DNA from: Dehalococcoidia bacterium
Lineage (GTDB): Bacteria; Chloroflexota; Dehalococcoidia; Tepidiformales; Tepidiformaceae
Assembly (NCBI GenBank): GCA_009839725.1
Contig: VXPF01000013.1
Span: 1-34,985, forward strand
Length of the DNA: 34,985 nucleotides
Reading direction: 5' to 3'
Every line of letters starts with the position of its first letter. Position 1 is the first letter of the stretch. The position numbers and the translations under genes are program-made. Under the pieces are notes generated by a model, which was not told where the DNA came from, ran no database searches, and was given only the letters and a program-made list of their open reading frames with translations. This document shows positions 6,243 through 26,395 of the stretch, piece by piece.

Positions 6243-8231
6243 GTGGAACCGAGACTGGCCGACGCCATCGGCGACTACCTGCGCGCGCACATCGAGCGCC
6301 ACGGCCGCAAGGCCACGGCCGCGGCGTTCGGCGTCTCGCGGCATACGCTGTGGCGCTTCCTCGAGCGCGGCCAGGCGGGCCGCGCGCTGCCGCAGGCCGT
6401 GCTCGAGCGCGTGGGCCCGGACCTCGACGCCGTCGACGCGGCCACGCAGGCGCTGCTCGCCCGCCCGGCCCCAGCTCACGAGGCAGCGCCGCCGCCGCAC
6501 CGCCTGCCCGAGCGCCTCGGGGAGACGCTGCTCGACCTCTGCGCGACGCCGCTCACCACGGTGTCCGAGCTGGCGACCTTCACGCGCGAGCCCGTCTCCA
6601 GCCTGCGTGACCGCCTCGACCGGCTGCGCCGGCGTGGGCTCGCGGACTGGAGACCGCACCAGCTCGGCGAGTTGGGCGAGCGCCCGCAGCGGCGCTGGTT
6701 CCCCACCCCGGACGGTATCGCCGCCGCCGAGGACGCGAACGGGAGCGGTGACGACCTGCTGCGCACGGCGCCCGTCTCGCGCCAGTGGTTCCGCCTGCTC
6801 GCCGAGCGCCTCGACTCGGTGGCGATCAGCTACGCCGTGGCGGCGCGCATCGCCGAGGCCACACCGGATGCCGGGCCGCTGCGCGTCGACCACTACCGCA
6901 GCGGCCCCTACGACGCCCTCGTCACACTCGCCGACGGGCGCACGCTCGGGCTGCTGCGGCAGGGGCCGCTGCTGACGCCCGCGAACCTGCGCTACCGACT
7001 GCGCAGCATCGAGCGCATGGACCACGCCGACCGCCCGCACCTCACGCTGGTGCTGGCGGCGTCCGACCAGGACGCGCGCCGCGCCCTGCGCGCGCTCGGG
7101 CACCCGACGGACCACGAGACAATGTTCGTCGCGAATACGGGCGAGGTGCTGGCGGGAACGACCGACGCGAAGGTCTGGCAGCAGTGCGGCAACGGCGTCG
7201 ACATGGCGACAGTGCTCGCCCCCAGCCTGCGCCTGCCCGACATCCTCGCCTGGCTGGAGGACGACCTCGCCCGGCAGCGCACGCGCTGGGGACGCGCCGT
7301 CCTCCGCCCCGACCGCACGAAGCTCTACGCCAAAGGGGTGCGCGCGAGCCGGCCCCGGCCCGCGGAGCAGCTCGACGCCGCCTCCGCCGTGCGGCTCTCG
7401 CGCACGGACAAGCAGGTGCTGGACCTGCTCGCGGACTGGCCGCTCTGCACGGCGGAGCAGCTGGCCGGCCTGATGGGCGGCGTCGGACGCCGCCGCGTCA
7501 ACCAGGCGCTGCGCCGCCTGCGCCAGCGCGGACTGGTGCAGCGCGACGACGAGGGAGGGGGCTACGTCCTCAGCGACGAGGGGCTGACCGTGCTCGCGCG
7601 GCGCGACCGCGCGGCGGTGGGACCGGTGCTCGACCGCTGGACGCCCCAGCGGCACGAGGGCGTGTACATCGGAAGTTCGCTGCGCTCGCTCGCCTCGCAG
7701 CGAGACCACCAGCGTGGCATCGTTTCGTTCGCGTCCCGCCTCAGCGCCGAGGTGGGGGCGCTTCCGGACGAGTACGAGCTCTTCGACCTGCTCCCCACGC
7801 ACCGCTCGCAGATCAGCTACGACGCCGCGGGGGCGCGTCAGCTCCTGCTCCCGGACGTCTCGTTCCAGCTTGCGCACCTGGGCTACTTCGAGTGGTGCCT
7901 GTTCGAGTACGAGCGGCGGGCGACCACGCCGCGTCGGCTCCCCACGCGGCTACGGTCCTACGAGCGCTACTTCAGGAGTCGCTACGCGGCGAACGACCAT
8001 GGGGGCCAGCCGCCGCTGGTGCTGTTCCTGTTCGAGTCTGAGCGGGCCGAGGCGGGCTTCCTCCACGCCGCCTCCTTCCTGCCCGGCGTGCTGCTGGCCA
8101 GCACGACCACGGCCGTGCTCGAGGAGCGCGGCGTCCTGGAACAGTCCTGGCGTCTGCCGCCTCCCCATGCACCACGACGCCGGTTCCTGGCCGACCTGCG
8201 GATTGTGGCAACGTGTCCCACCGACCCGTAG
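6243..8231 (+). CDS. Replication-relaxation (Replic_Relax)-type DNA-binding protein with extra N-terminal HTHs
   Basis: 662 residues from a GTG start. Residues about 3-55 look like a helix-turn-helix (TAAAFGVSRHTLWRFL). Residues about 95-165 form a winged helix (LATFTREPVSSLRDRLDRLR) followed by a wing-like RRWFPTPDG. Residues about 380-445 form a second winged helix (CTAEQLAGLMG, RVNQALRRLRQRGLV, YVLSDEG). The C-terminal part (about 470-640) has the Replic_Relax pattern: a conserved H in the linker, LLPDVSF, FEYERRA and LRSYERYF, then PLVLFLFES. Family members are known mostly from plasmids and integrative elements and resemble replication-initiation wHTH proteins. Its role here is not known. 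Two separate winged-helix units within one protein suggest an internal duplication of the DNA-binding half. Confidence 0.6.
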   Translation: MEPRLADAIGDYLRAHIERHGRKATAAAFGVSRHTLWRFLERGQAGRALPQAVLERVGPDLDAVDAATQALLARPAPAHEAAPPPHRLPERLGETLLDLCATPLTTVSELATFTREPVSSLRDRLDRLRRRGLADWRPHQLGELGERPQRRWFPTPDGIAAAEDANGSGDDLLRTAPVSRQWFRLLAERLDSVAISYAVAARIAEATPDAGPLRVDHYRSGPYDALVTLADGRTLGLLRQGPLLTPANLRYRLRSIERMDHADRPHLTLVLAASDQDARRALRALGHPTDHETMFVANTGEVLAGTTDAKVWQQCGNGVDMATVLAPSLRLPDILAWLEDDLARQRTRWGRAVLRPDRTKLYAKGVRASRPRPAEQLDAASAVRLSRTDKQVLDLLADWPLCTAEQLAGLMGGVGRRRVNQALRRLRQRGLVQRDDEGGGYVLSDEGLTVLARRDRAAVGPVLDRWTPQRHEGVYIGSSLRSLASQRDHQRGIVSFASRLSAEVGALPDEYELFDLLPTHRSQISYDAAGARQLLLPDVSFQLAHLGYFEWCLFEYERRATTPRRLPTRLRSYERYFRSRYAANDHGGQPPLVLFLFESERAEAGFLHAASFLPGVLLASTTTAVLEERGVLEQSWRLPPPHAPRRRFLADLRIVATCPTDP

Positions 8232-9772: not shown

Positions 9773-11431
9773 ATGACCGACCGCACCGACCCCATGCCCG
9801 TCGCGCTGTATGCTCGCGTCTCCAGCGACCGCCAGGACGTCGACCTCTCCGTGGCCGCCCAGCTGCGCGCCCTGCGCGAGCACGCCGAGAAGCACGGCTA
9901 CATCGTCGTGCGCGAGTACGTCGACGAGGCCGAGAGCGGCCGCGTCGCCGACCGCCCGCAGTTCCGGCAGATGCTCGACGACGCGAGCGGCGCAGACGCT
10001 CCGTTCGAGGAGATCCTCGTCTGGAAGTTCAGCCGCTTCACGCGCAAGCGCGAGCACGCCGTCGCCTTCAAATCGATGCTGAGGAGGCGCGGCATCCGCG
10101 TCGTCTCCATCACCGAGCACGCCGACGACTCCCCCACCGGCAAGCTCATGGAGGCGATCATCGAGAGCGTCGATGAATTTTACTCGGAGAATCTCGCCCA
10201 GGACGTTGTTCGCGGGATGAGGGAGGCCGCCTCAAGGGGCTTCTTCCTCGCCTCGCGCGCCCCGTTCGGCTACAAGAGAGTGAAGGTCGCTGATGGTGGC
10301 AAGGAGCGCCCCACGCTCGAGGTCGACCCCGACTCCGCTCCCGTCGTGAAGGAGGTCTTCGAGCGGGCGCTGCACGGGCAGGGCCTGAAGGAGATCTGCC
10401 GCGACCTCAACGAGCGCGGGGTGACCAACCGGGGACGGCGCTGGCAGAAGAACGCGCTCCACTACCTGCTCACCAACGAGGCCTACACGGGCACGGCCGT
10501 GTGGGGCAAGACGAGCCGGGTCGGCAAGACCCCGAATCCGGTACGGGTGGAGGGCGCCTGGGAGCCCATCGTCACGAGGGAGCTGTTCGAGGGCGTGCGC
10601 AAGGCGCTGCGCAGCCGCGCGCCCAACGTCCAGCGCCCGGCGAGCATCGGGAGCAAGTACCTGCTGAGCGGGCTCCTGCGCTGCGGGCTGTGCGGGAAGG
10701 CCTACGTGGGGCAGGGGGCGAAGGGCGGCCGCTACGGCTACTACGTCTGCGCGACATTGCAGCGCGAGGGCGCGGGAATGTGCGAGGCGCGCTACCTCAA
10801 CGCCGAGAAGGCGGAGGGCTTCGTGGTGGAGAAGATCCGCGAGCGCATCCTCACCGATGAGACGATCACGGAGCTGGTGACGCTGGTGGCGGAGGAAATC
10901 GACGCGCAGGCGGGCGAGCTCGACGGGAAGCTGCATGTCGTCGAGGCGGAGCTCCAGGACGTGCGCAGCAGGCTGGGGAAGCTCTACGAGGCGCTGGAGA
11001 AGAGCGACCTCACGCTGGAGGCGCTCTCGCCGCGCATCCTCTCGCTCAGGCAGCGCGAGGACCAGCTGGCGGCGGCGCGCGAGGACGCGGCGCGGCGCCT
11101 GGAGGAGCGGCGGGTGGAGCTGCCGGGCTCGGAGGAGATCCGGGCGTACGTGGCGGACCTCCGGGAGTTTTTCCAGGAGGGGACGTTCCCGGAGCGCAAG
11201 GCGCTGCTCCGCCACTTCGTGCAGGGCATCGAGGTCACGGGCGACGAGGCCGAACTGACGTACACGATCCCGATGCCGGCGGGGGGTGTGACGAGCGAGC
11301 GTGCGGGAGTTCTTGATTTTGTCCAGTCCGGCCCACCAGACTTGACGGTAGACAGTACCGGCGCAGCGAGAGCTACCTCCTCGGCCTTGCCGCCGCGCAG
11401 CGGACTGTCCTTCGGCATCGGGATCGAATAG
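9773..11431 (+). CDS. Large serine recombinase (integrase), copy 1, with altered C-terminus
   Basis: 552 residues. The N-terminal resolvase domain has YARVSSDRQ (nucleophile Ser17), then FEEILVWKFSRFTRKREHA and SVDEFYSENLAQ (about 10-150). A recombinase domain follows (PFGYKRV, GVTNRGRRWQKNALHYLLTN). Then comes a zinc ribbon (CGLCG...YYVC...CEARYL, about 300-345) and a coiled coil (about 380-450). This is the large serine integrase architecture, which joins short att sites without extensive homology. Up to about residue 516 it follows the family. The last ~36 residues after GVLDF are read from DNA that is antisense to the neighbouring recombinase's 3' end, so its native end was replaced. The start is set by AAGGAG at 9759. 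Confidence 0.9.
   Translation: MTDRTDPMPVALYARVSSDRQDVDLSVAAQLRALREHAEKHGYIVVREYVDEAESGRVADRPQFRQMLDDASGADAPFEEILVWKFSRFTRKREHAVAFKSMLRRRGIRVVSITEHADDSPTGKLMEAIIESVDEFYSENLAQDVVRGMREAASRGFFLASRAPFGYKRVKVADGGKERPTLEVDPDSAPVVKEVFERALHGQGLKEICRDLNERGVTNRGRRWQKNALHYLLTNEAYTGTAVWGKTSRVGKTPNPVRVEGAWEPIVTRELFEGVRKALRSRAPNVQRPASIGSKYLLSGLLRCGLCGKAYVGQGAKGGRYGYYVCATLQREGAGMCEARYLNAEKAEGFVVEKIRERILTDETITELVTLVAEEIDAQAGELDGKLHVVEAELQDVRSRLGKLYEALEKSDLTLEALSPRILSLRQREDQLAAAREDAARRLEERRVELPGSEEIRAYVADLREFFQEGTFPERKALLRHFVQGIEVTGDEAELTYTIPMPAGGVTSERAGVLDFVQSGPPDLTVDSTGAARATSSALPPRSGLSFGIGIE
10001..10204 (+). repeat. Left arm of a ~200-bp near-identical inverted repeat (recombinase 1)
   Basis: The segment encoding PFEEILVWKFSRF through SENLAQ is almost base-for-base the reverse complement of 12489-12685 in the second recombinase. 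Only scattered third-position changes are seen. The arms are about 2.3 kb apart, so homologous recombination could invert the interval and swap the two C-terminal halves. Confidence 0.75.
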
Positions 11432-12915
11432 CGGATCGTGGCGGCGCCCGGGGCGACGGCGATCTCCTTCACGAACGAGTGGAGGAAGGCCTTCGACTCG
11501 GTCAGCTCGCTCGTCCCGAGGAACTCCCGCATCTCCTCCGCGTAGGCGGTGATCGTCTCCACGTCGTCGAGGACCTCGCGCCGCTCCGCGAGCGCGGCCC
11601 GCGCCTCCGAGGCCGTCTGCTCCAGGCGCCCGCGGCGCTCCTTGTGCTCGCGCACGCGCGGCAGCACGTCGCTGATGTCCAGCTCGGTCGTCTCCATGAG
11701 GTGGTAGAGCCGGTCCAGCCGGCGGCGCACGTCGGCGATCTCGGACTCGATCGTCTCGAGCTGCTTGCGGCGCTCGCTCGCCACGGCGTCCATCTCCTCG
11801 GCGACGAGGCTGACGAGGTCGCGGATGTTGGACTCGGTGAGGACGTTGGCCCGGAGCTGGTCGACGACGAGTGACTCGAAGCGCCGCGCGTTGAGCCGGG
11901 GCGCGTCGCAGGACCCGCGGCCGCGCTTCATGAGGGACTGGCAGACGTAGTAGGAGAACTTGCCGCTCTTCGAGTCCTGCCCGGTGAGGGCGCGCCGGCA
12001 GCTGCGGCACTTGACCAGCCCGCTCAGCAGGTAGGAGCTGCCGACGCGGCGCGGGTGGGCGCGCTTCGGAGCCCGTGAGCGCATGAGCGACTGCACGCTC
12101 GCGAACAGCTCCTTCGAGACGATCGCGGGGAAGGCGTCCTCGACGCGCACCGGCGGCGCGCCGTCCTTCGCGCCCGTGCCCCACTGCAGCACGCCCGTGT
12201 AGACCTCGTTGGTGAGCAGGATGTGGACGCCGTTCTTCGACCAGGGACGGCCCGTGGGGTTGGAGATGCCGTCGTCGTTGAGGGTGCGGGCGATCTCGGT
12301 GATGCCCTTGCCCTTCTCGGCGAGCGTGAACATGCGCTCCACGACGGGCGCGGTCTCGGGATTCACCTCGAGCACCGGGCGCTTCTTCGCGCCGTCCTGC
12401 ACGTAGACGCGGGTGTAGCCGTAGGGCGTGCGGCTGGCGACCCAGAAGCCGCGCGAGGCGGCCTCGCGCATCCCCCGCGCAACCTCCTGCGCCAGGTTCT
12501 CCGAGTAGAACTCGTCGACGCTCTCGATGATCGCCTCCATGAGCTTGCCGGTCGGGGAGTCGTCGGCGTGCTCGGTGATGGAGACGACGCGGATGCCGCG
12601 CCGGCGCAGCATCGACTTGAAGGCGACGGCATGCTCACGCTTGCGCGTGAAGCGGCTGAACTTCCAGACGAGGATCTCCTCGAAGGGCGCATCGTCGGCG
12701 CTCGCCTCGTCGAGCATGCGCCGGAACTGCGGTCGGTCGGCGACGCGCCCGCTCTCGGCCTCGTCGATGTACTCGCGGGTGACCAGGTAGTTGTTCTTCT
12801 CGGCGTAATCGCGAAGCGCGCGGAGTTGGGCGGAGACGGAAAGGTCGACGTCCTGACGGTCGCTGGACACGCGCGCGTAGAGAGCGGCCGGTGTCGGGTC
12901 GGGTCGTTCGCTCAT
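10984..12915 (-). CDS. Large serine recombinase (integrase), copy 2, reading through into antisense of copy 1
   Basis: 643 residues as read from ATG 12915, which has GGGGAGAG about ten bases upstream; longer N-terminal extensions look non-coding. YARVSSDRQ gives the nucleophile Ser17. FEEILVWKFSRF and SVDEFYSENLAQ complete the resolvase core; TPYGYTRVYV starts the recombinase domain. The zinc ribbon is KCRSC...YYVC...SCDAPRL, followed by a coiled coil. The family-like part ends near residue 532 at VKSGGPDWT. The remaining ~111 residues are the antisense of recombinase 1 (11320 down to 10984) and are unlikely to be native. Probable integrase of an element lying to the right. The N-terminal half is nearly identical to recombinase 1, the C-terminal half clearly different. 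Confidence 0.88.
   Translation of the reverse strand: MSERPDPTPAALYARVSSDRQDVDLSVSAQLRALRDYAEKNNYLVTREYIDEAESGRVADRPQFRRMLDEASADDAPFEEILVWKFSRFTRKREHAVAFKSMLRRRGIRVVSITEHADDSPTGKLMEAIIESVDEFYSENLAQEVARGMREAASRGFWVASRTPYGYTRVYVQDGAKKRPVLEVNPETAPVVERMFTLAEKGKGITEIARTLNDDGISNPTGRPWSKNGVHILLTNEVYTGVLQWGTGAKDGAPPVRVEDAFPAIVSKELFASVQSLMRSRAPKRAHPRRVGSSYLLSGLVKCRSCRRALTGQDSKSGKFSYYVCQSLMKRGRGSCDAPRLNARRFESLVVDQLRANVLTESNIRDLVSLVAEEMDAVASERRKQLETIESEIADVRRRLDRLYHLMETTELDISDVLPRVREHKERRGRLEQTASEARAALAERREVLDDVETITAYAEEMREFLGTSELTESKAFLHSFVKEIAVAPGAATIRYSIPMPKDSPLRGGKAEEVALAAPVLSTVKSGGPDWTKSRTPARSLVTPPAGIGIVYVSSASSPVTSMPCTKWRSSALRSGNVPSWKNSRRSATYARISSEPGSSTRRSSRRRAASSRAAASWSSRCLSERMRGESASSVRSLFSSAS
11321..11338 (+). 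other. tRNA 3'-end-like sequence at the recombinase junction (candidate att fossil)
   Basis: GTCCAGTCCGGCCCACCA fits the last 18 bases of a CCA-encoding tRNA: the end of the T-loop, T-stem strand CCAGT, acceptor strand CCGGCCC, discriminator A and CCA. No 5' part of a tRNA precedes it. Both recombinase reading frames pass from family-like sequence to foreign sequence at this spot. From memory, related recombinases often end in a peptide read from the antisense of a tRNA-Ile gene. I infer an att core left by integration into a tRNA gene. Confidence 0.5.
12489..12685 (-). repeat. Right arm of the recombinase inverted repeat
   Basis: Reverse-complement partner of 10001-10204. See the left arm. 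It encodes the catalytic-core segment of recombinase 2. Confidence 0.75.
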
Positions 12916-13353
12916 CGGTCTGGCTCTCCCCTTCGCTTCTCGTTCAGCGTACCGAGCCGTCTCCCCTACAGGCGCGCCCTTCGGTGAAGATGTGGCCGAC
13001 CCGTCACATCGGAGCAAGCACGTTCGCTGTTGGTGCCAGAAGCGGACCCCTGGCCGGTTTCGCTTGCCTCTGGCGACACATGGCTCAGAACGTCCGTTCT
13101 GACAAGGAGCATACCTCATGCCCAGGCGCTTACGCAGCCTGGCCGGCGCCCGGAGTCCCTGAGTCGTCTTCAGCCACTCCCTCCCGTGCAGCCTGATATC
13201 CTCGCGCGTCCCCGGAGGGAAGCACATGAGTAGCAAGAGTGCGACTCGTGGTTAGGCGACTCTTGACACCTCTCCAGCCTGTCCCGGCCGGTGTAGGCAC
13301 TGTGCATCGCGGCGTTCGGCTCGTCAGCGCCTCCCGAGGAGGGGAAGTGGCGG
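12916..13353. other. 438-bp intergenic region between recombinase 2 and the defence island
   Basis: No gene supported. It holds the RBS of recombinase 2 (reverse strand, about 12922-12932), an 18-bp palindrome (13085-13102) listed separately, and a spaced inverted repeat CAAGAGT (13234-13240) / ACTCTTG (13259-13265). It also holds the GAGGAGGGG ribosome-binding site (about 13336-13344) of the TIR gene. A reverse-strand extension of recombinase 2 stays open across much of it but lacks family-like sequence. Confidence 0.4.
13085..13102. promoter_or_regulatory. 18-bp palindrome with a GAAC-N4-GTTC core (SOS-box-like)
   Basis: TCAGAACG-TC-CGTTCTGA is a perfect inverted repeat. Its core GAACGTCCGTTC (13088-13099) fits the GAAC-N4-GTTC form of LexA boxes known in Gram-positive bacteria. 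It lies 170 bp upstream of recombinase 2 (reverse strand) and about 250 bp before the first TIR gene, so it could serve either. LexA control is an inference from the motif only. Confidence 0.4.
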
Positions 13354-13728
13354 GTGGCTAGGCTCAACGTCTTCGTCAGCTTCGAGTTCGACAAGGACGA
13401 GAACCTCAGGGGGAGCTTCTACGCGCAGGCGAAGCGCCACACGCGGCATCGCATAGGGGACTACTCGCTGAGCGAGGCTTACAAGGCCCGGGAATGGAAG
13501 GCGAAGGCGAAGGCCGCCATTCGCCGGTGTGATGCCGTGGTCGTCCTCATCGGCGAGGACACGCACAATGCTCCCGGGGTCAGGACGGAAGTGGACATCG
13601 CCCAGAGCCTCGGGAAGCCAATTCTCCAGGTAAGGCCGCAGAAGCGAAGCTACCCCGGCCTGCATTGGCTCGACGACCCGATTCCATGGAAGTGGGAGCG
13701 CATCGAGGACTGGCTGGACGAGCTATGA
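13354..13728 (+). CDS. TIR-like (MTH538/ThsB-type fold) protein, first copy
   Basis: 124 residues from GTG 13354, with a strong GAGGAGGGG RBS. It opens with RLNVFVSFEFDKDENLRG and has AREWKAKAKAAIRRCDAVVVLIGEDTHNAPGVRTEVDIA, then GKPILQVRP. These are the beta1-alpha1 and beta3-alpha3 parts of the TIR-like MTH538 (DUF1863/ThsB) domain. Such proteins act in Thoeris as cyclic ADP-ribose-type signal makers, and related ones occur in other defence operons. Its stop overlaps the start of the next gene by ATGA, so the two are translationally coupled. Catalytic competence cannot be judged by eye. Confidence 0.75.
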   Translation: MARLNVFVSFEFDKDENLRGSFYAQAKRHTRHRIGDYSLSEAYKAREWKAKAKAAIRRCDAVVVLIGEDTHNAPGVRTEVDIAQSLGKPILQVRPQKRSYPGLHWLDDPIPWKWERIEDWLDEL

Positions 13729-14141
13729 ACTCGGAAGCGGCGCGCATTGAGCACCTCAAGCTGATTCAGGGAGTCGTGGACCGGCTGAGCCGGAACTCCT
13801 TCGCCGTCAAGTCAGTGGCGACGGCAGCGACGGCGGCGTTGGTGGCATTCACGGCCGGCACCGAGGCACCCGTGGCGGCTCTTGCTGGCGTCACAGTACT
13901 TCCCCTGTGGGTGCTCGATGCCCTCTTCCTCGATCGCGAGCGTGGCTTTCGCCGGCTCTACGACAGCGTGCGACGGGGCGCTCCCTTGGAGCACGGGCAC
14001 AGTGACTACTTCACGATGGGTGTTCCCTCAGCAGGGCACCGCCACAGCCTCCTGAGAGCTGCTTCAAGCGCGAGCCTGTCCCTGTTCTACGTCTCTCTTC
14101 TCGTGCTGGTCGGGGTGTCAGCGCTCGTCACGCTGGTCTAG
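13725..14141 (+). CDS. Membrane protein paired with the TIR-like protein
   Basis: 138 residues; ATG 13725 overlaps the upstream TGA. It starts with a soluble helix (IEHLKLIQGVVDRLSRNSF), has a hydrophobic pair (about residues 27-65, ending in LPLWVLDALFLDRERGFRRLYDSV), then a polar loop and a last hydrophobic helix (about 113-137). From memory, the pattern of a helix with IQGVI-RL--NSF followed by LDA-FL--ER-FR-LYD recurs in membrane proteins encoded next to TIR-like genes. A pore-forming or membrane-disrupting effector driven by the TIR partner's signal is plausible but inferred. Its end faces the convergent TIR/ubiquitin-like operon 23 bp away. Confidence 0.65.
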   Translation: MNSEAARIEHLKLIQGVVDRLSRNSFAVKSVATAATAALVAFTAGTEAPVAALAGVTVLPLWVLDALFLDRERGFRRLYDSVRRGAPLEHGHSDYFTMGVPSAGHRHSLLRAASSASLSLFYVSLLVLVGVSALVTLV

Positions 14142-14164
14142 AGCCCTAGGACGCGGGGGTGCAC

Positions 14165-14722
14165 CTAGCCCAGGAGCCGCGAGAGCCAGCTCCTGCCAGC
14201 ATGCTCGCGACGGACCCTCCGGCGCTCTTCAGCGTTCCTGACGGCTAGCTCGACCCAGTCTTCGATGTCGTCGGCAATGCGATGGTAGGCGCGCTGGCTG
14301 TCCTTCGTTCGGGGATCGTGGACCTTCACATGGTCAGAGAGTCGTACACCTTCCACCTCGATGTCGAACGGATTCCTCCCCTTGCGGGACTGCTTCCCGT
14401 GCTGGTCCTGCAGGTTGTGGATGTAGATGCCGATCAAGCCCTTCCCCTCGACCCAGGCCTTCTCGATCTCGTATCTGACCCACTCGCGATCAGCCGTCTC
14501 GCTGCCGACCAACACGACGACGCACGAACTGCGCGCGATCCGCGCGTCTATCCATTCCCTAATGGCGGACTTGCCTCGACGCTTGACCTCCTCCCAGGCA
14601 TTGGAGTCAACCGGCCTGCTTCTTTGGATCACACCGATGTTGCGCACCTGTGACGTGCGCCAACTGTCGCCGTCGTAGTGGAAACTGAAGAAGACTCGTC
14701 GCCTGGGACTCTTGGCTGGCAT
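14165..14722 (-). CDS. TIR-like (ThsB-type) protein, last gene of the ubiquitin-like operon
   Basis: 185 residues. It begins RRRVFFSFHYDGDSWRTSQV, a strong signature of ThsB-type MTH538 TIR-like proteins, followed by AIREWIDARIARSSCVVVLV and ADREWVRYEIEKAW. A C-terminal extension carries a charged helix (VRNAEERRRVRREHAGRSW). ThsB proteins are known to make an NAD-derived signal in Thoeris; no ThsA partner is present in this window. The gene starts six bases after the DUF6527-type gene in the same direction, so it is almost surely co-transcribed with the ubiquitin-like genes. It is much closer to ThsB than the first TIR copy is. It could act as the effector of the conjugation system or as a passenger. 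Confidence 0.85.
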   Translation of the reverse strand: MPAKSPRRRVFFSFHYDGDSWRTSQVRNIGVIQRSRPVDSNAWEEVKRRGKSAIREWIDARIARSSCVVVLVGSETADREWVRYEIEKAWVEGKGLIGIYIHNLQDQHGKQSRKGRNPFDIEVEGVRLSDHVKVHDPRTKDSQRAYHRIADDIEDWVELAVRNAEERRRVRREHAGRSWLSRLLG

Positions 14723-14728
14723 GCTCCT

Positions 14729-15085
14729 CTATCTCCAGGGGATGCTGAGTCGCCACTGAGCGACCCGCCGCCAAAGAGGCAAGCGCCGCGCAGGCTTGGC
14801 CTCCGCGAAGGAAGGCAACCAGATCACCTTGTTGCGCCGGACGTAGTAGTGCGACTGGCACTCGAAACTCCTGTTGCCGACGGATGGGCAGAGGGAGATT
14901 GACTCACCGTCAAAGGTCATGCTCCAGTCGTTTGGGTTGAGCGGCGTGACGACCTCGCGGCCGCATCCGCAGCAACAGCTGTGCAAGGCCGTCGCGAAGG
15001 CGACGGAGACGTACAGCACCCCATCGGCAAGGTGTTCCGGGATGTGATGGACGAACTCGTGATCGAGCGCCGTCCTACGGCTCAT
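14729..15085 (-). CDS. DUF6527-type Cys-rich protein of the ubiquitin-like operon
   Basis: 118 residues from ATG 15085, whose ATGA overlaps the stop of the E1 gene; a longer upstream extension is not needed. The sequence has EFVHHIPEHLADGVLYVS, then HSCCCGCGREVV, NDWSMTFDG, SLCPSVGNRSFECQSHYYV and RRNKVIW. I recall this pattern as DUF6527, found next to ThiF/E1 genes with ubiquitin-like partners. The CCCGC cluster plus the later C and H residues could form a zinc site, perhaps treble-clef-like. A ligase-type or adaptor role is only an inference. Confidence 0.75.
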   Translation of the reverse strand: MSRRTALDHEFVHHIPEHLADGVLYVSVAFATALHSCCCGCGREVVTPLNPNDWSMTFDGESISLCPSVGNRSFECQSHYYVRRNKVIWLPSFAEAKPARRLPLWRRVAQWRLSIPWR

Positions 15086-16254
15086 GGCTGGCGCTCGTTG
15101 ACCAGGTGGTTGCCGTCGATCTGGTAGCAGCTCGAGTGCTCCCGGCCCAGATCGAGGTAGAACCCCATGAGCTTCTTCCACTTGACGACGGCGAGGGCGG
15201 CGTTCAGCGCGTTGAGGTCTGCGATCTGGATGTTCTGGGAATAGTCGTCATCCGTGGGTCGCTCTGCGAGCGGGATCGTCGAGTGAACGTGATCGCGGTC
15301 GCCAGGCGTCGCAGACGTTACTCGCAACTGCCCCAGCAACGCCCCGTCAACCTCGTTGACACCCATCCCTACATCGACGAACGGCACGCCGGCGTCGAGC
15401 AGCGTCTCGACGGCCAGTCGCCTGGCAGCGGCGTCATCCACGGCGACGAAGGCGAAGTCCACCGAGGACAGGATGTCAGCCGCGCCGTGATCGAGGTGGT
15501 CATGGCTGACGATGTTGCGATGCATGTTGGAATAGATGCCGCGGAAGTAGTCGGACTTCCTGGGTCGTGCTCTGAGGTCGTCAACCGACGGCGCGCCGGG
15601 AGCCCGGAAGGCGTTGTGCTGGCCGAAGGTGTCGCCGTCGAACAGGTGGATCGCATCGACCGGCGTCTTCGCTACGAGATCGAGGATGTACGAGCCGGTG
15701 CCGCCGAGCCCAACGATTGCCACTGCGCTGAGCCGGAGCTTCTCCGTGATCGCGCCGATCTCGGCCCTGCTCGAGGCTGTATCAACGTACTCGAACACCG
15801 AGCTTGTGTTCTCCTCCGGGGCTACCAGGAACGTCCGAGCTGTGGCTGCGGGGTCGATCGCCTGCGCATAGCCGGACAGGATCTCCGCGTACGTCGACAT
15901 CTTCTCGTAGTAGTCCGCGTAGCCACCCTCCGGCTTGCTCGAGAACTTGTGCTGAGCGATCAGGCCGTCGCCCAGGTCCCACGAACCGGCAGAGTTGATG
16001 ATGTTGCTGAGAGGCGTCCCCTCGCTGTTGCACGGTGCGCGCCCGGTGAACATCACGACATGATTGCTCGGGCGGGCGGCGACATCCCCTGCGAGGTCAA
16101 GTTTGGAGACCAGCGAGGCGCGCGCGACGACGCGATCCTCGGTGACGTATGGGACGTGCTTCAGTAGGAGGTAGCCCCCGCGCACCTCGATCTCATAGCC
16201 CTCGTCCGCGAGCCGCTGGAGATCGGGGCTACGACTTATCAGTTGCGGTGGCAT
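15082..16254 (-). CDS. E1-like ThiF family adenylyltransferase with N-terminal accessory domain
   Basis: 390 residues from ATG 16254. Residues about 1-165 form a domain typical of this subfamily (I recall it as DUF6791), with GYEIEVRGGYLL, a Cys at 75 in FTGRAPCNSEGTPL, and GGYADYYEKM. The ThiF/E1 Rossmann domain follows: nucleotide loop VAIVGLGGTGSYI (about 178-190), FDGDTFGQHNAFR (about 204-216), and VDVGMGV. E1-like enzymes adenylate the C-terminus of a ubiquitin-like protein. Only two cysteines exist (75 and 376), and none lies where a classical E1 crossover-loop Cys would be. It overlaps the ubiquitin-like gene by 26 bp and the next gene by 4 bp. Confidence 0.85.
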   Translation of the reverse strand: MPPQLISRSPDLQRLADEGYEIEVRGGYLLLKHVPYVTEDRVVARASLVSKLDLAGDVAARPSNHVVMFTGRAPCNSEGTPLSNIINSAGSWDLGDGLIAQHKFSSKPEGGYADYYEKMSTYAEILSGYAQAIDPAATARTFLVAPEENTSSVFEYVDTASSRAEIGAITEKLRLSAVAIVGLGGTGSYILDLVAKTPVDAIHLFDGDTFGQHNAFRAPGAPSVDDLRARPRKSDYFRGIYSNMHRNIVSHDHLDHGAADILSSVDFAFVAVDDAAARRLAVETLLDAGVPFVDVGMGVNEVDGALLGQLRVTSATPGDRDHVHSTIPLAERPTDDDYSQNIQIADLNALNAALAVVKWKKLMGFYLDLGREHSSCYQIDGNHLVNERQP

Positions 16255-16516
16255 TGAAGACGGTGCCGTCCTTGACCTTCACTTCGCCGCCGGGGCGGAG
16301 GCTGCCATCGGGCGGGCGGCCGGCGCCGTTGCGGTAGGTGACGGTGAACTCCCAGTTCGAACCCGAGGGCACCGGGTTGAAGGCGAGCTCGAGCACCTCC
16401 TTGAAGGAGATCTCCTCGGACGTGACGATCCGCTCGCGGCCGTTCACGATGATGGCTATTCTGTCCTTGTCGTCGGACCTGTCCTTGTCGCCGAGCTTGT
16501 CCTTGTCGTCAGGCAC
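16229..16516 (-). CDS. Single-domain ubiquitin-like protein (multiubiquitin family)
   Basis: 95 residues from GTG 16516, which has a strong RBS (AGAGGAGGG) ending four bases upstream. An ATG at 16540 gives eight more residues but has a poor RBS. After a charged tail of DDKDK/DDKD repeats come RIAIIVNGRERIV, EISFKEVLELAF, WEFTVTYRNGAG, then EVKVKDGTVFNATATDKS. This matches the multiubiquitin beta-grasp family, whose members usually carry several repeats; here there is one. The C-terminus is TDKS, with no diglycine. It is the first gene of the operon, followed by the E1 gene with a 26-bp overlap, so it is the likely E1 substrate. Confidence 0.8.
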   Translation of the reverse strand: MPDDKDKLGDKDRSDDKDRIAIIVNGRERIVTSEEISFKEVLELAFNPVPSGSNWEFTVTYRNGAGRPPDGSLRPGGEVKVKDGTVFNATATDKS

Positions 16517-16547
16517 GGGGCCCTCCTCTGAACCATACATTGAGATG

Positions 16548-16565
16548 TGTACCGTCTCCGGTACA
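16548..16565. promoter_or_regulatory. Operator-like palindrome in the divergent promoter region
   Basis: TGTACCG-TCTC-CGGTACA is a perfect 7-bp inverted repeat. It lies just before the ubiquitin-like gene (reverse strand). A related element sharing GTACCGT lies at 16615-16630. The reverse strand has TTGACA at 16600-16595 as -35 with a weak -10 (TAGCGT, 18-bp spacing), so the palindrome would cover the transcription start. The XRE protein encoded divergently is the natural candidate to bind it (inference). Confidence 0.5.
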
Positions 16566-16614
16566 GCAACACGCTAGCGCACGGCTTCCGCTTGTGTCAA
16601 ACTGGGGTGGTGCG

Positions 16615-16630
16615 GCGTACCGTTTTACGC
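16615..16630. promoter_or_regulatory. Second operator-like element
   Basis: GCGTA-CCGTTT-TACGC, a 5-bp-arm inverted repeat that shares GTACCGT with the palindrome at 16548. It sits immediately upstream of the RBS (AGGGAG 16633-16638) of the XRE regulator gene, fitting autoregulation (inference). Confidence 0.4.
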
Positions 16631-16643
16631 ACAGGGAGCGTGC

Positions 16644-17114
16644 GTGGCTGACGGCAGCCTCGATCTCAGCGAATTGGGTCGGCTCTTCGCGGCGGAGCGG
16701 AGTCGCCGCGGAATGAGCCTTCGCGAGGCCTCCGATGACGTCGGGATTCCATTCAACACCCTTGCCCGAGTTGAGAAGGGCCACGTTCCGGACCTACCGA
16801 AGTTCAAGCGACTCGTCGAGTGGTGCGGAGCCGACATCGGTCAGTTCTTCGAGCCTCACGAGAAGGCCACGGTCACGACCGACGTGATTGCGGAGCATCT
16901 TCACTCGGATCGCAGCCTCTCGCCCGAAGCGGCTGATCGCATTGCGGCCATCGTGAACGAGCTCTACGAAGCGCTGGCTCGCCCCGAGAGGGTATCCGCG
17001 GTGCACCTAAGGGCAGCGACAACGTTCAGGCCCGACGCGGCCCACGCCCTCGGAGAACTAGTCGACGATCTGCACCAAGCGCTCTTGAGAGAGTCGCGAG
17101 ATGGCCCTTCGTAG
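16644..17114 (+). CDS. XRE-family HTH transcriptional regulator
   Basis: 156 residues from GTG 16644, with AGGGAG five bases upstream. Residues about 8-60 are an XRE helix-turn-helix: LGRLFAAERSRRGMSLREAS, then GIPFNTLARVEKGHVPDLPKF and LVEWCGADIGQFF. The remaining ~95 residues are helical and not recognised. It is divergent from the ubiquitin-like operon (103 bp apart counted from the ATG at 16540), with two palindromic elements between. Its 3' end overlaps the metallopeptidase gene by 14 bp. XRE plus ImmA/IrrE pairs are known regulator/anti-regulator modules in ICEs, phages and defence loci, so this pair probably controls the divergent operon. Confidence 0.85.
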   Translation: MADGSLDLSELGRLFAAERSRRGMSLREASDDVGIPFNTLARVEKGHVPDLPKFKRLVEWCGADIGQFFEPHEKATVTTDVIAEHLHSDRSLSPEAADRIAAIVNELYEALARPERVSAVHLRAATTFRPDAAHALGELVDDLHQALLRESRDGPS

Positions 17115-17679
17115 GGGCTTCAAGTCGGAGGCGGAGAGGATTGCAGCGAGCCTGAGAGCGGATCTCGGGGTGGGGCCGGCGCAGCCGGTCACGCCCGACA
17201 ACTTGGCGGAACTCCTGGGTGTCGAGATCCGATCAGGAGATGACCTGATTCCGCGTAGTCGATTTGTCGCTCTCGACGAGCTTCAGCCGGATGCCTTCTC
17301 AGCCTGCACCTTCCGTCCTTCACCCGATCGCGTGGTGATCGTGTTCAACCCCTTATCTGCGCCCTCGCGCCGGACGAGCGACCTCGCGCACGAATTCGCT
17401 CACATCCTGCTCGACCACGACTTGAGCCGAATCGAGACGCTCGGCGACATCACCTTCCTCTCCTGTGATCCGATTCAGGAGGAGGAGGCCGCGTGGTTGT
17501 CCGGGTGTCTCATCCTTCCTCGGCCGCTACTCCTAGCGGAGGTCCGCCGAGGGGCGACGGCGAGCGATATCGCGAAGCGCCACGGTGTCAGCGAAACCAT
17601 GGCGCGGTACCGCCTAAACGTCACCGGGGTGGCGAGGCAACACGCGGCACGCAGGAAGAGAAGGGCCCGGGCAGGGTAG
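17101..17679 (+). CDS. ImmA/IrrE-type zinc metallopeptidase
   Basis: 192 residues. The motif LAHEFAHILLDHD (about residues 97-109) carries the HExxH zinc site, with a downstream EEEAAWLSGCLILPRPLL typical of ImmA/IrrE (COG2856) proteins, where the third ligand is an E. The C-terminus has an HTH-like SDIAKRHGVSETMARYRL and a basic tail. Family members cleave or inactivate an XRE-type repressor after a damage signal (known for ImmA/ImmR and IrrE/DdrO). Here the partner is the overlapping XRE gene. A triggered derepression of the ubiquitin-like/TIR operon is the natural reading (inference). Confidence 0.88.
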   Translation: MALRRGFKSEAERIAASLRADLGVGPAQPVTPDNLAELLGVEIRSGDDLIPRSRFVALDELQPDAFSACTFRPSPDRVVIVFNPLSAPSRRTSDLAHEFAHILLDHDLSRIETLGDITFLSCDPIQEEEAAWLSGCLILPRPLLLAEVRRGATASDIAKRHGVSETMARYRLNVTGVARQHAARRKRRARAG

Positions 17680-17777
17680 GTGGCACGCCCTACGCGCGGG
17701 CTGGCACGTGTGGAGTACAGGCGAGCCGCGAATCTGCAGGTGCTGCGCACCCACCTCATGCGGCTCTCCCGCAGGCG

Positions 17778-17791
17778 GGGCGGCGCCGCCC
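17778..17791. terminator. GC-rich palindrome after the metallopeptidase gene
   Basis: GGGCGGCGCCGCCC is a perfect 14-bp palindrome in the 228-bp gap before the toxin-antitoxin pair. There is no T-run, so termination is only possible. The rest of 17680-17907 stays open in the antitoxin frame but shows no gene-like features. Confidence 0.25.
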
Positions 17792-17907
17792 GCCGCGCCC
17801 ACTGCATCCTCTTGAAGTACCGCGTTGGCTGCCGCAAGGCGGAGGCGAGGCGGCCCCGGCCGCTGTCGAGGCGGTACGATAGGAGCGGCGCGCCGGGAGG
17901 ATCAGCC

Positions 17908-18180
17908 ATGACCACAACTGTGAAGGCCACGTACGCCAACGGCGTGTTCACGCCCCAGGAGCCCGTCGACCTCGAGGAGGGCGCGGAGGTCATGGTCTCG
18001 ATGGACGGCACGCCGCGTGAGTCGTCGGGGAGGGGGGAGGAAGGCGGAGCCTCCCTCCTGGACCTGATCGAGGAGCTGCACACTTCGGCGCTCGTCGGTG
18101 AGCCTGACGACCGGCCCGCTGACCTCGCCGAGCACTACAAGCACTACCTGTATGGGCACCCGAAGGACGACGCTCCGTGA
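17908..18180 (+). CDS. Antitoxin, AF2212-like (DUF104) type
   Basis: 90 residues from ATG 17908; GGGAGG seven bases upstream fixes this start over a longer frame. MTTTVKATYANGVFTPQEPV followed by LEEGAEVMVS is the classic DUF104/AF2212-like antitoxin N-terminus (a small beta-barrel DNA-binding fold). The C-terminal part (SLLDLIEELHTSAL, DLAEHYKHYLYG) is the likely toxin-binding tail. The next gene starts within its stop codon (GTGA), the usual arrangement for a VapBC-type module. Confidence 0.85.
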   Translation: MTTTVKATYANGVFTPQEPVDLEEGAEVMVSMDGTPRESSGRGEEGGASLLDLIEELHTSALVGEPDDRPADLAEHYKHYLYGHPKDDAP

Positions 18181-18596
18181 GCGAGGTCTTCGCCGACACC
18201 GGGTACTGGGCCGCGCTGCAGGACAGTCGGGACAGGCTGCATGAGAGGGCACTCGCTCTGACGCGTGGGCTTGAATCTCGCCGCGTCGTGACTACCCAGA
18301 TGGTGCTGGCCGAGGTTCTCAACATGTTTGGGAGCCGAGGAGAACAGCAGCGGCGCCTGGCCGGCGAGGTTGTTGAGCGAGCGGAGCGCAGTCTCGATGT
18401 CGAGATCGTGCCGCAGACGGACGCGCAGTTCCGCGCAGCCTTGGAGCGCTACACCGAGCGGCCGGACCAGACGTGGAGTCTCACGGATTGCGCCAGCTTC
18501 ATCATCATGGAGGAGCGCGGCATCACCGATGCCCTCGCCCACGACCGCGACTTCGAGCAGGCTGGCTTTACCGCCCTGCTCCGCCCAAGCGATTGA
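18177..18596 (+). CDS. PIN-domain toxin (VapC-like ribonuclease)
   Basis: 139 residues, GTG start in GTGA overlap with the antitoxin stop. The acidic PIN residues are visible: D7 in FADTGYW, E46 in LAEVLNMF, D104 in SLTDCASF and D123/D125 in AHDRDFEQAGF. VapC toxins are Mg-dependent RNases cutting tRNA or rRNA; the target here is unknown. Length is typical and no motif is missing. The module lies between the XRE/peptidase genes and a decayed TIR copy, as expected for an island stabiliser. Confidence 0.88.
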   Translation: MSEVFADTGYWAALQDSRDRLHERALALTRGLESRRVVTTQMVLAEVLNMFGSRGEQQRRLAGEVVERAERSLDVEIVPQTDAQFRAALERYTERPDQTWSLTDCASFIIMEERGITDALAHDRDFEQAGFTALLRPSD

Positions 18597-18612
18597 AGAG
18601 ACTCCACGCGAC

Positions 18613-18875
18613 GCACGATCCGCGCGCGATCCGCGCGTCTATCCACCCCCCGATAGCGGCCTTGCCGCGACGCTTGACCTCCTCCAGGCGTTGGCGCTGA
18701 CCGGCTTGCTTCTGTGGATCGCGCCGATGTTACGCACCTGTGACGTGCGCCAGTTGTCGCAGTCGTAGTGGAAGCTGAAGAAGACTCGTCGACCGGGAGT
18801 CTTGGCTGACATGCCCGCTCACCTCCAGGGGATCCTGAGTTGCCACTGAGCGACCCGCCGCCAGAGAGGCTAGCC
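18613..18875 (-). pseudogene. Decayed second copy of the TIR-like/DUF6527 junction
   Basis: The stretch corresponds to 14517-14784 in the same orientation, with mostly single-base differences. It contains the last ~15 codons of the DUF6527-type gene (18817-18875), the short spacer, and the 5' end of a ThsB-type gene from ATG 18812 (GRRVFFSFHYDCDNWRTSQV). A single-base deletion in CCTCCAGGCG (CCTCCCAGGC in the intact copy) shifts the frame after about 45 codons, and the copy stops near the segment for IDARIAR. The upstream E1 and ubiquitin-like genes are missing. This is evidence of an older second copy of the operon. Confidence 0.8.
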
Positions 18876-19240
18876 GAAACCGGTGCTGGCCCGCGGGCTC
18901 GAATCCCAGCTCGCGCAGAAGGCGGGCGGGCAGCGTTGTGCCGGCGGCGGCTGTACCCGACCGACAGTGGCTTCGATGTCCCTCGACAGCCTGCCATCCA
19001 TCCCCGAGACCCGGAAGGGTCAGTTTAGCGTCCCCATGGGCAGCCCGATTGCTCGCAGGTGTGAGCCGCCACAGTCCACCAGATTCCCTTCGGTACCCAT
19101 GCAATCGAGGTCGAGAGGACTGCGGTGGTGGATGAGCGTCTAAGCCGCGTGGGTGCGCCGCGCCGGGCCCCAGACCCTCGGAGGGAGGGTTGCGAACTGC
19201 CCGCGGCACGTTGCAGGCTTCGATTCTAGAGGGGGCATCT
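18876..19240. other. 365-bp stretch without a supported gene
   Basis: Nothing convincing beyond open frames without family-like sequence. The RBS-like AGAGGGGG at 19228-19235 belongs to the protease gene. A TTG at 19190 could lengthen the protease by 17 codons but its GAGGGAGGG abuts the codon with no spacing. Confidence 0.3.
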
Positions 19241-20704
19241 GTGGAGCCATTTCAGGAGGCTGCCGCGCGTGTGCAAGCCAGTACGGTGAAGGTCTGGCGG
19301 GAGATTGGGGAGGGACTCGGAACGGCCTTCTACATTGGAGAAGGCCAGTTCGTGACGGCGGGTCATGTCGTCGCTGGCGAGACGCATGTGCTCTTGACGA
19401 ACGCCGTACACGACTACTCGGCGGTCGCGCGTGTGGTGGGGTGGCTCTCCGAGGAAGGTGGCGACCTCGCCATCATCGCCGTGACGCATGTACCCCAGCC
19501 CCGAAGCAAGGCTCACTCACCGCTCGCACCCCTGAAGTTGGCGGGAGTGTTAGACGCGGGGCAAGAAGTTGGGGTGGCGGGGTATCCATCAGGCTTCAAC
19601 GAAGCCGATCTTCGGAATCCGGCGGCCGTGACCCGGGGTGTGCTCTCACGCCACCATAGAGAGGGGAACATCACGTACGTTCAAACAGATGCTGCGGTGA
19701 ACCCCGGGAACAGCGGTGGCCCGCTCTTTGACTTGAACGGCCAGGTGGCAGGAGTCGTGACCTGGAAGTTCATCTCGTCAGAGGGGGTGGGATTCGCAGT
19801 TGCTGAACCAAGCCTCAGTCGGCTTCTCGGGAACATTCGCACGATGGCGGCTAAGAATCTGTCGTGCATGGTGTCCCAGTCGGCGGTACAGCCGGCGGGT
19901 GTCGCAGGCATTGTGTGCACCGTTACTGACGATGCTGGATGGCTCGTAGCAGGCATCGCGGTGAGCGCCGACATAGTTCAGGGCGATGGTCGGTTCGCGG
20001 ACATTGGCAAGGTGGCGACCGACGAGCGAGGACAGGCAACTTTGGCCTACTTGGCACCCTCGACGGCGGGTCTCGCCGTCATCGAGATTCGAGCCGGCGC
20101 GCTCCGTGCGTTTGCCGAGGTGGCTATTGCTTCGAACGTATCCATCGTATCGAGTGATGCTCCGGAGTGGGTTGAGATGCTGAGTGAGAGCCGCATCACC
20201 GTCACAGTGACGGACGACGAGGGCGTGCTTGTCGGTGGTGTGCCTATCAGCATTGAGAAAATCGAGGGCGGCGGCTTGGTCGATGCACCGGGCGAGATGA
20301 CCTTCGACGGGCGGGCATCGTTCACCTTCTACGCTCCAAACGACACTGGCAAGGCAGTGTTTCTAGTCCGCGCCGGGGACGCAGCGAAGGGTCAGCAGAT
20401 CCAAGAGACCATAACCGTCCTAATCGGTGACGCGCCGGCTCCAGCACTGCCCTCGCGTCGAGATGAGCCGCCCGCTCGACAAACCTCATGGAGTGAACCG
20501 CTGACGCCCGGCACCTGGAATCTGGTCTGGAATGGTGCGGATGATGCGGCACCTTCCGATGGAGTCACCGCGGGTGTGGTCGCCATCTCCTGGTGGAACG
20601 GTGAGGCATGGGACAGCTACTTCCCTAGTGCTGGAAATGTTCCAGGTCTGAACACGCTCGCCTCGCTCAGCAAGGGTGCTGCGTACTGGGTCGTGGTGGA
20701 GTAG
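19241..20704 (+). CDS. Trypsin-like (S1C/HtrA-type) serine protease with two Ig-like domains
   Basis: 487 residues from GTG 19241. The protease domain (about 1-205) has the triad in context: His in VTAGHVVAG (about 40), Asp in EGGDLAIIAV (about 75) and Ser in NPGNSGGPLF (about 157). It is followed by two invasin/BIG_1-like repeats (about 210-310 and 310-405: IVCTVTDDAGWLVAGI..., ITVTVTDDEGVLVGGVPI). Last comes a C-terminal domain ending SLSKGAAYWVVVE, with a WNLVWNG start, of a kind I recall at the ends of Chloroflexota proteins. No signal peptide or transmembrane segment is seen, so it may act in the cytosol, which is odd for Ig repeats. It lies 308 bp upstream of the Qat operon on the same strand; a functional link is possible but unproven. 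Confidence 0.8.
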   Translation: MEPFQEAAARVQASTVKVWREIGEGLGTAFYIGEGQFVTAGHVVAGETHVLLTNAVHDYSAVARVVGWLSEEGGDLAIIAVTHVPQPRSKAHSPLAPLKLAGVLDAGQEVGVAGYPSGFNEADLRNPAAVTRGVLSRHHREGNITYVQTDAAVNPGNSGGPLFDLNGQVAGVVTWKFISSEGVGFAVAEPSLSRLLGNIRTMAAKNLSCMVSQSAVQPAGVAGIVCTVTDDAGWLVAGIAVSADIVQGDGRFADIGKVATDERGQATLAYLAPSTAGLAVIEIRAGALRAFAEVAIASNVSIVSSDAPEWVEMLSESRITVTVTDDEGVLVGGVPISIEKIEGGGLVDAPGEMTFDGRASFTFYAPNDTGKAVFLVRAGDAAKGQQIQETITVLIGDAPAPALPSRRDEPPARQTSWSEPLTPGTWNLVWNGADDAAPSDGVTAGVVAISWWNGEAWDSYFPSAGNVPGLNTLASLSKGAAYWVVVE

Positions 20705-21012
20705 CTATCGCGCTTCACGCCTATGCGGGGCGCTGCGTACAGCCCGCAGGCGAGGGCGCTACGCCGGGCTGCTCCTTTCGGTGGAGAATTCGCGATTCAG
20801 AGGATTCTTCCCAGACCAGATCGAATCTGTTTCGTCGACCGGATCTTCGGGGCGGGGCCGGCTAGAGCCGGAGCACCACCTCCTCGCCGTTTCCGGCTGA
20901 CCCGGTTCAGTCTGTCGGGAGCACGTGGGCGGCGACGAGGTCGCTGGGTCGCGCAGTCGGCGTGCTAACATCGTTGGGCTCCCCCACCCACAGAAGGTGA
21001 ACCCACGGATCA
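20705..21012. other. 308-bp gap before the Qat operon
   Basis: No gene. CCGGCT-AG-AGCCGG (20858-20871) is a palindrome that could form a short hairpin after the protease gene; no T-run follows. A -10-like TAACAT lies at 20966-20971 without a clear -35, and AGGTGA at 20995-21000 may be the RBS for qatA. Confidence 0.35.
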
Positions 21013-22839: not shown

Positions 22840-23632
22840 GTCAGGGTCGGGTCCGGGCTCGGGCGTGCCTCTGGTACCCCCTTGGGTCCCCGATCTTCCC
22901 AGCTCACCGGCCGAGCCCGACCCGCAACCAGGAGATGATGGGCGACTCCGTCCGGCGCCAGCAGGGCGATTCGGCCCGGCACGCCGTAGTCTGGGCAGCT
23001 TCGCGCGACAGGGTGCGACGCCGGACATGCGGAGGGGGCTCGGTCACTACGTTCGACGAGGATACGGGGGATCTCGCACCGCAACCCAGCGGATGGGCGG
23101 CACCGTTCGTGCGGCTGGCGCACTCTACGACGCTCTGTCCTCATCAAGAGCAGCCGACGAAGCCGAACCTGGCAGCGGCTGGGACCTCTCCGATCTCGAT
23201 GGACGGTCGGCTGACGAGATAATGGATGCAGTGGCAGAGGCAGTGCGGCCCACTGATGGGACGCTCGACGCGGAAGCTGGGCGAGAGGCCGTACGAGACG
23301 CCCTCTCTGAACTCCTTGGTCGCTTCCCGGATGCAGACCTCCTTAGCCTGTCGGAAGGCCAGCGCGTCTTCGCTGTCGAACGCTACATTGCGTTCGACGT
23401 CTACAACCTGTTCCGCCTCGACGTCGGGAAGACCATCCACGACAAGGCGTTGAACGCGACGGAAGCGCTTTCGCGACTTAGGGAGGTCAAAGACTATCTC
23501 GTGGAGTCCGTTTCCTCGCGATTCCGAGCACTGAGGGGCGCGCGCGAACAGCTGACGGGACGACGGGTTGCCGAGCTGGCGACCCGTGCTCTGCAAGAGA
23601 CCTTCGAGGTCTTCGAGGCGTATGTAACGTGA
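22826..23632 (+). CDS. qatB: QatB
   Basis: 268 residues from a GTG that overlaps the end of qatA. The first ~60 residues are a Pro/Gly/Ser-rich, probably disordered region (GTSKSGSGPGSGVPLVPPWV). The rest is helical: MRRGLGHYVRRGYGGSRTAT, then SADEIMDAVAEAVRPTDGTL, and a C-terminal helical bundle with FAVERYIAFDVYNLF. QatB proteins have no known enzymatic motif; the glycine-rich start and this VRRGYGG segment fit what I recall of the family, and position between qatA and qatC is diagnostic. Its stop overlaps the qatC start (GTGA). Confidence 0.85.
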   Translation: MGTSKSGSGPGSGVPLVPPWVPDLPSSPAEPDPQPGDDGRLRPAPAGRFGPARRSLGSFARQGATPDMRRGLGHYVRRGYGGSRTATQRMGGTVRAAGALYDALSSSRAADEAEPGSGWDLSDLDGRSADEIMDAVAEAVRPTDGTLDAEAGREAVRDALSELLGRFPDADLLSLSEGQRVFAVERYIAFDVYNLFRLDVGKTIHDKALNATEALSRLREVKDYLVESVSSRFRALRGAREQLTGRRVAELATRALQETFEVFEAYVT

Positions 23633-25628: not shown

Positions 25629-25723
25629 AGAGATGGCCGCGCAGCCAACACCTGCGGTACGCGGGTTGGATCGGATTGCGGCCAGAGCTATCTTCTACGT
25701 GACCCGGACCGGAGGAGACCGAG

Positions 25724-25993
25724 ATGGTGCCGCGCCGTCCCTCTGAGGAGGTCGCTCGCCTCGGTGACGAGATCTACGAGCGCGACATCCGGCGCCAAGT
25801 CGAGGCCGAGCATCACGGAGAGGTCGTCGCCGTCGACGTGGAAAGCGAGACCTGGGCCATCGGCGACACCGTGATCGTTGCGCGGGATCGCCTGCGTACG
25901 AAGCGTCCGAACGCGATCGACGTGTGGCTGCTCCGGGTGGGGCATCGGGCACTGGATCACTTCGGTGGTCGCCCACTGAGTAACCCCAAGTGA
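25724..25993 (+). CDS. Small hypothetical protein preceding a clan AA protease relic
   Basis: 89 residues from ATG 25724 with GGAGGAG about six bases upstream. The sequence starts PRRPSEEVARLGDEIYERDI and has HHGEVVAVDVESETWAIGDT, ending LRVGHRALDHFGG. From memory, small proteins of this type lie directly before clan AA aspartic protease genes in Chloroflexota and Cyanobacteria. That matches here, since the decayed protease frame starts in its stop codon (ATGA-type overlap at 25990). No function is known. The frame is intact although its partner is broken. Confidence 0.65.
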   Translation: MVPRRPSEEVARLGDEIYERDIRRQVEAEHHGEVVAVDVESETWAIGDTVIVARDRLRTKRPNAIDVWLLRVGHRALDHFGGRPLSNPK

Positions 25994-26349: not shown

Positions 26350-26364
26350 CAGCACCTCGAAGGT

Positions 26365-26395
26365 GGTACTGACTACCGTCAAGTTAGGCCCACCA
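26365..26395 (+). repeat. Recombinase-tail relic with GGCCCACCA (possible element boundary)
   Basis: Bases 26365-26384 match the reverse complement of 11340-11359 at 19 of 20 positions. In that copy the bases encode the end of recombinase 2 (VLSTVKS); here they read VLTTVKL. They are followed by GGCCCACCA (26387-26395), the same nine bases that end the tRNA-like sequence at 11330-11338. No other recombinase sequence is left here. It may be the scar of an integrated element. Confidence 0.45.

Follow-up and report, generated by a model that had tools for sequence, protein, structure and literature searches.

What arrangement of mobile DNA leaves two recombinase genes running head-on into each other, each read antisense through the 3' end of the other? 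The question is raised by the window, a stretch of 34,985 bp from a Dehalococcoidia (Chloroflexota) genome in which gene A (9773..11431, forward strand) and gene B (10984..12915, reverse strand) converge and then overlap in antisense over 448 bp (10984-11431), as the first-pass annotation had described. Both carry the full Resolvase, Recombinase and Zn_ribbon architecture (Pfam, above cut-offs) and are, by this domain content, large serine recombinases (LSRs): A is the integrase of element 1 and falls in what we call the A-type clade, and B is the integrase of element 2. Their gene bodies form an inverted repeat of 669 nt (80%), and the block common to both at the joint is GGCCCACCAGA (11330-11340, approximately 11 bp) plus the flanking att arms. 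Beyond approximately 11331 the residues of A are replaced by an antisense reading through B; the native body of B reaches approximately 11338 and is followed by about 100 aa read antisense through A, giving 643 aa in the integrated gene vs 544 aa for the native ORF of the circle. The A-B joint restores neither tail. Joints of the same kind were found in contigs G000:C11 and G001:C64 and at approximately 15 independently assembled MAG loci, named as Chloroflexota and Acidobacteriota, and since they recur in independent assemblies the joint is not a product of chance or mis-assembly. From the comparisons below, the window very probably spans the point where two elements, arrayed in tandem behind the 3' end of tRNA-Met(CAT), meet; both are mobilized by tRNA-targeting LSRs, with attP embedded in the 3' portion of the integrase gene itself.

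The first-pass annotation had read an 18-bp stretch at the joint as a tRNA-like 3' end, and a tRNA-derived core is indeed there. This core, GGCCCACCA (11330..11338, forward strand), derives from the 3' end of tRNA-Met/Val and is identical in contigs C33 and C42 of the same genome (G000) and at the right att core, the attR of element 2 (26387..26395, forward strand). ARAGORN finds no tRNA gene in the window, and the search for a matching tRNA elsewhere, which the annotation had proposed, returned two. In C33, a tRNA-Val(GAC) gene ending in CCCACCA is directly followed by GACTTGACGGTAGACAG and a B-type gene; in C42, tRNA-Met(CAT) forms the same joint with a B-type gene at the contig end. In both, an identical CCCACCA joined to GACTTGACGG connects the tRNA 3' end to the B-type 3' end. 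The same holds widely among relatives, where almost every B-type gene runs out at a tRNA 3' end and reads the tRNA antisense, the targets including Ala, Val, Tyr, Ile, Gln, Arg, Leu, Lys, Glu, Asn, and Met tRNAs. The database protein tail 'GGIRTPDLL...LSQLSYSP' is one such antisense tRNA.

On either side of the core lie short att arms, both inside coding sequence. The right arm of the A element, GTTCTTGATTTTGTCCAGTCCGG (11309..11331, forward strand, inside gene A), bears the motif GTTnTnnnTnnnGT...GG that is present at all LSR 3' ends, and is an imperfect inverted repeat of A-type left ends. The left arm of element 2, GTACTGTCTACCGTCAAGTCTGG (11336..11358, reverse strand, inside gene B), is an inverted repeat of the right arm at 26366-26388. 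The arms of element 2 are palindromic around a 2-bp core, GTACTGACTACCGTCAAGTTAGG-CCCA-CCAGACTTGACGGTAGACAGTAC, in which the core bases are deduced from symmetry: the palindrome would place the crossover at CC (or CT) within GGC-CC-ACCA, and the crossover dinucleotide at the joint would be the CC at 11333-11334.

An empty site in a related genome gives the chromosomal context. In G002:C41, the sequence found to the right of 26395 in the window lies directly downstream of tRNA-Met, and C42 aligns collinearly with the opposite side of this tRNA-Met in both G002 and G003; the empty site, tRNA-Met plus flank, therefore equals the left side of C42 plus the right side of the window, with support from G003:C4. 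From 32.8 kb onward, the window matches the region downstream of the same tRNA-Met in both genomes. This match, together with the joints between tRNA and B-type genes, bears out the proposal of the first-pass annotation that two integrative elements share one tRNA-derived att site, and on this synteny we place the joint at the tRNA-Met(CAT) locus of this genome. The most likely chromosomal order is tRNA-Met (C42), a first B-type element (B1), Replic_Relax and A, GGCCCACCA, the second B-type element (B2, element 2) with its defence cargo, GGCCCACCA, and flank. The assembly breaks off between C42 and the window, and the A element's left end is hidden in this gap; since C42 carries a B-type end, at least one more element lies between tRNA-Met and A. 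A search beside C42 did not recover this left end; the sole perfect A-type left-end match in this genome is at tRNA-Val in C74, and a second A-type left end, of CTACCA type, is in C125. The flank (26396..34985), syntenic with G002:C41 and G003:C4, encodes an aldo-keto reductase, a solute-binding protein, a kinase, and an oxidoreductase, and may hold relics of older elements. Short stretches at 28956-29155 resemble the interior of an LSR gene (83% to 11549-11622) and C66, and are probably such relics. A 67-bp repeat (82%; 26274-26340 and 27648-27714), part of the dispersed element right end, lies on either side of the aldo-keto reductase region. Elsewhere, locus L074 (G005:C8:165001-177132) has several decayed right ends close together, stacked att relics of successive insertions.

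Element 2 (11339..26388) measures 15,050 bp between cores, and its right flank is the one matching the empty tRNA-Met site. Its cargo comprises a ThsB-like TIR protein, a DUF6791-ThiF E1 and a multi-ubiquitin protein (14165..16540, reverse strand; PADLOC, Pfam), and a QatABCD defence operon (21013..25628, forward strand; PADLOC matches to QatA, B, C, and D). With a PIN/AF2212 toxin-antitoxin pair also present, the element is a defence island. It contains a direct repeat of 272 bp, 86% identical (14513-14784 and 18605-18874), whose first copy overlaps the ThsB-like gene. On the other side of the joint, the A element carries a Replic_Relax (replication-relaxation) gene upstream of its LSR (6243..8231, forward strand; Pfam PF13814, E=2.6e-11), and its homologues keep this order in the C33 and C155 elements (blastn synteny). 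A Uma2-family putative restriction endonuclease gene (8534-9133) lies between Replic_Relax and A. Beside the Replic_Relax gene, 348-6134 encodes a secreted-type protein of 1928 aa that combines cadherin repeats with a glucose/sorbosone dehydrogenase domain and may belong to the cargo of the A element.

Convergence of the two genes was first attributed to insertion in opposite orientation or to an inversion, and the long inverted repeat formed by the gene bodies does invite the idea that recombination through its 80% identity, or opposite att insertions, brought two genes tail to tail and truncated both by accident. The att cores at 11330, at 26387, and at tRNA-Met are nevertheless all in the same orientation, and convergence stems instead from a difference in polarity between the two types of element. 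In A-type elements the integrase always occupies the tRNA-distal end, in B-type elements the tRNA-proximal one. A-type left ends stand directly after tRNA-Val, Ala, and Met genes or abut another element's right end. In G001:C62, the corresponding A-type left arm comes after tRNA-Glu; in G001:C13, an A-type gene leads into GGCCTACCA, beyond which lies the flank that follows tRNA-Glu(CTC) in G005. Left ends at tRNAs and this right end together place the A-type integrase away from the tRNA, and the tail-to-tail pair arises when an A-type element stands between the tRNA and a B-type element. Polarity is a clade trait: on a tree of 137 LSRs, A polarity (46 rows) needs 2 changes vs 38.8 in shuffles, and 43 of the 46 rows group together at 100% SH-aLRT support. 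An inversion fits badly with a polarity that is the same in all genomes, with joints that recur in independent assemblies, and with the 3' arm of A, which matches right ends (GGCCYACCA) and not left ends. In our view the conserved polarity and the match to the empty site already refute it, and we give it next to no credence.

The recurrence of A-B joints in many MAGs could also mean that A and B work as a pair within a single element, their genes converging on attP in the circle and parted to one per end upon integration, and there are two-recombinase precedents in CcrA/CcrB and DsiA/DsiB (PMC3146451). Against it, element 2 is closed on the right by a complete end of its own, which bears the tail of B and no A, the C33 and G048 elements have one LSR each and complete ends, and A is often followed by unrelated flank and not by B. 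A-type left ends found at tRNAs bear A's own tail, not B, and for this reason we dropped the pair, which we now consider very improbable. Two tandem elements of different polarity are the reading that we carry forward.

LSRs of the PhiC31 and Bxb1 type are encoded by complete genes next to attP. In the present family, the ends of the elements place attP inside the integrase ORF, approximately 18-20 codons before the stop, so that with each integration the native C-terminal tail would stay behind at the opposite end. Hence the replaced C-termini noted in the first reading of this DNA are real in both integrases yet are no peculiarity of this junction: with attP inside the ORF, every integrated family member has one. 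The native C-termini, whose search had been suggested, were found at the other ends of the elements. That of B lies within the window, 15 kb from B: the split-off 3' end at 26338..26394 (reverse strand) continues the B frame across the core and encodes the tail GGPNLTVVSTTFEVLFSL (...GPNLTVVSTTFEVLFSL) and its stop, along with the att arm. This right end of the element 2 type, of about 60 bp, occurs in more than 30 places in the genus, and in 26 of the 31 B-type right ends fetched the tail stop is at one position. A-type left ends encode PPDWTKSRTFALRLRLAM and a stop, and the ends of a third (C155-type) family GGPTRTVLRTFRWAVSL and a stop. A TF-x-hydrophobic motif closes the tails, whose stops are conserved.

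We joined the ends in silico into five circles: element 2 of the window (15,050 bp), the C33 element (22,148 bp), the C155 element, the G048 element (approximately 37.7 kb, from a closed genome) and a G001 A-type element, whose ends are on two contigs. In every circle the integrase formed a single in-frame ORF, which terminates in T-F-x-hydrophobic-x-hydrophobic. Tails of this kind also close four genes that are naturally contiguous and intact (L197, L206, L250, and L251). Contigs C14 and G259:C118 showed no terminal repeat, and a complete circle was not found there. An AlphaFold2 model of the intact L197 protein with 24 sequences (mean pLDDT 73, pTM 0.38) draws the tail as a strand of low confidence (pLDDT ~50).

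One can suspect that the far end of about 60 bp is no more than att accessory or terminator DNA, its frame to the stop being incidental and a variable C-terminus being tolerated. The palindromic arm is needed as att DNA in any case, B-type far ends are very alike at the DNA level, and the catalytic and DNA-binding domains of the LSRs are complete without the tail. Past the arm, however, the three families have a common TF-x-hydrophobic peptide and stop position despite different DNA, and the distant intact genes L250 and L251 bear the same tail. We also compared single-base codon variants beyond the att arm with the consensus of each family, ignoring relatedness, which makes the p values approximate. 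Synonymous variants were enriched among A tails (14 of 21 vs 6.9 expected, p=0.0015) and C155-type tails (10 of 15 vs 4.4, p=0.003); B tails alone gave 8 of 16 vs 5.0, short of significance (p=0.09), and pooling all tails gave 32 of 52 vs 16.3 (p=7e-6). These patterns argue that the tails are under coding constraint and not accidental, and make the purely DNA-level explanation unlikely, if less so than the two weighed above.

The cycle that we propose is as follows. In the excised circle, the integrase gene would cross attP and end approximately 18-20 codons later in the conserved tail. Recombination at the tRNA 3' end, through a core of CC (or CT) that immediately precedes ACCA, would leave the tRNA whole, the element supplying its own ACCA. 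It would also cut the integrase gene before its tail, which would be left at the far end of the element, while the integrated gene would read into antisense tRNA or into a neighbouring element. An A-type element inserting between the tRNA and an older B-type element would set the genes tail to tail, the insertion order being our deduction, and only a circle, or a tandem of two elements of the same type, would give a complete integrase gene again. Insertion itself may therefore change or switch off the integrase: loss of the tail would lower or alter its activity, making integration partly self-limiting. Taken to its end, this describes a bacterial self-splitting serine integrase whose tail is needed for full activity or stability, which integration switches down and which only the circle or a same-type tandem neighbour restores; we put this forward tentatively, rating it somewhat below an even chance.

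Within the open-access literature, the closest precedent is dsiB at ssrA in Dehalococcoides (PMC3146451), and earlier reports may exist elsewhere. McMurdie et al., 2011 (PMC3146451) found that dsiB always overlaps attL and left its stop codon unclear; they proposed that the gene might become complete in the circle or through an adjacent island, the 3' fragment not being identified. Those islands, in the same bacterial class, likewise have an LSR, at the left end, whose 3' end overlaps attL with a stop outside the island, and form tandems at one RNA gene. They differ in using the tmRNA T-loop at one locus and not many different tRNA 3' ends, and in a second small recombinase, DsiA: no such ORF lies beside A or B, whose neighbours are Replic_Relax, Uma2, and ThsB. 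In the present elements, unlike in the DsiB islands, the tail is identified and shows coding constraint, and there are two integrase polarities. The 'suicidal' integrases of archaea (SSV, pTN3, pT26-2), self-disrupting recombinases called exclusively archaeal in a review (PMC8371274), also have attP inside the integrase gene, which tRNA integration splits; they are tyrosine recombinases and the cut separates the catalytic part, whereas A and B are bacterial serine recombinases losing only the last ~18-20 codons. In the integration-dependent immunity of mycobacteriophage BPs (PMC4557955), attP is similarly within a coding gene and integration changes the C-terminus of the product, but that element is a phage with a tyrosine-type integrase, and the gene that is split encodes the repressor. 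Domain architecture, palindromic att arms, and a 2-bp core are as in the phage-type LSRs PhiC31 and Bxb1 (LSR catalogue, PMC10083194). According to Islander (PMC4383910), serine integrases are not known to target tRNA genes.

Relatives at E≤1e-80 are present in 94 of 345 genomes and 54 of 205 genera within the class. Named matches come from MAGs of Dehalococcoidia and other Chloroflexota and from a few Acidobacteriota; phage and plasmid records hold only distant relatives (<40% identity), and IMG/VR holds four relatives. Loci L148, L157, L171, and L183, named Acidobacteria/Bryobacterales, hold the same LSRs, through either inter-phylum transfer or mis-binned contigs.

A missing 3' end is thus identified for the kind of serine integrase gene left open in the Dehalococcoides islands in 2011, and the role of the tail and self-limiting integration become testable questions. 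A widespread serine integrase family uses the 3' ends of many tRNA genes, once held to be the domain of tyrosine integrases; its elements carry defence operons in arrays, and the antisense-tRNA peptide ends of many database 'recombinase' proteins are explained. If the self-splitting model is true, element arrays behind tRNA genes would work as a switch, and A-B joints such as that of the window would lock both enzymes off.
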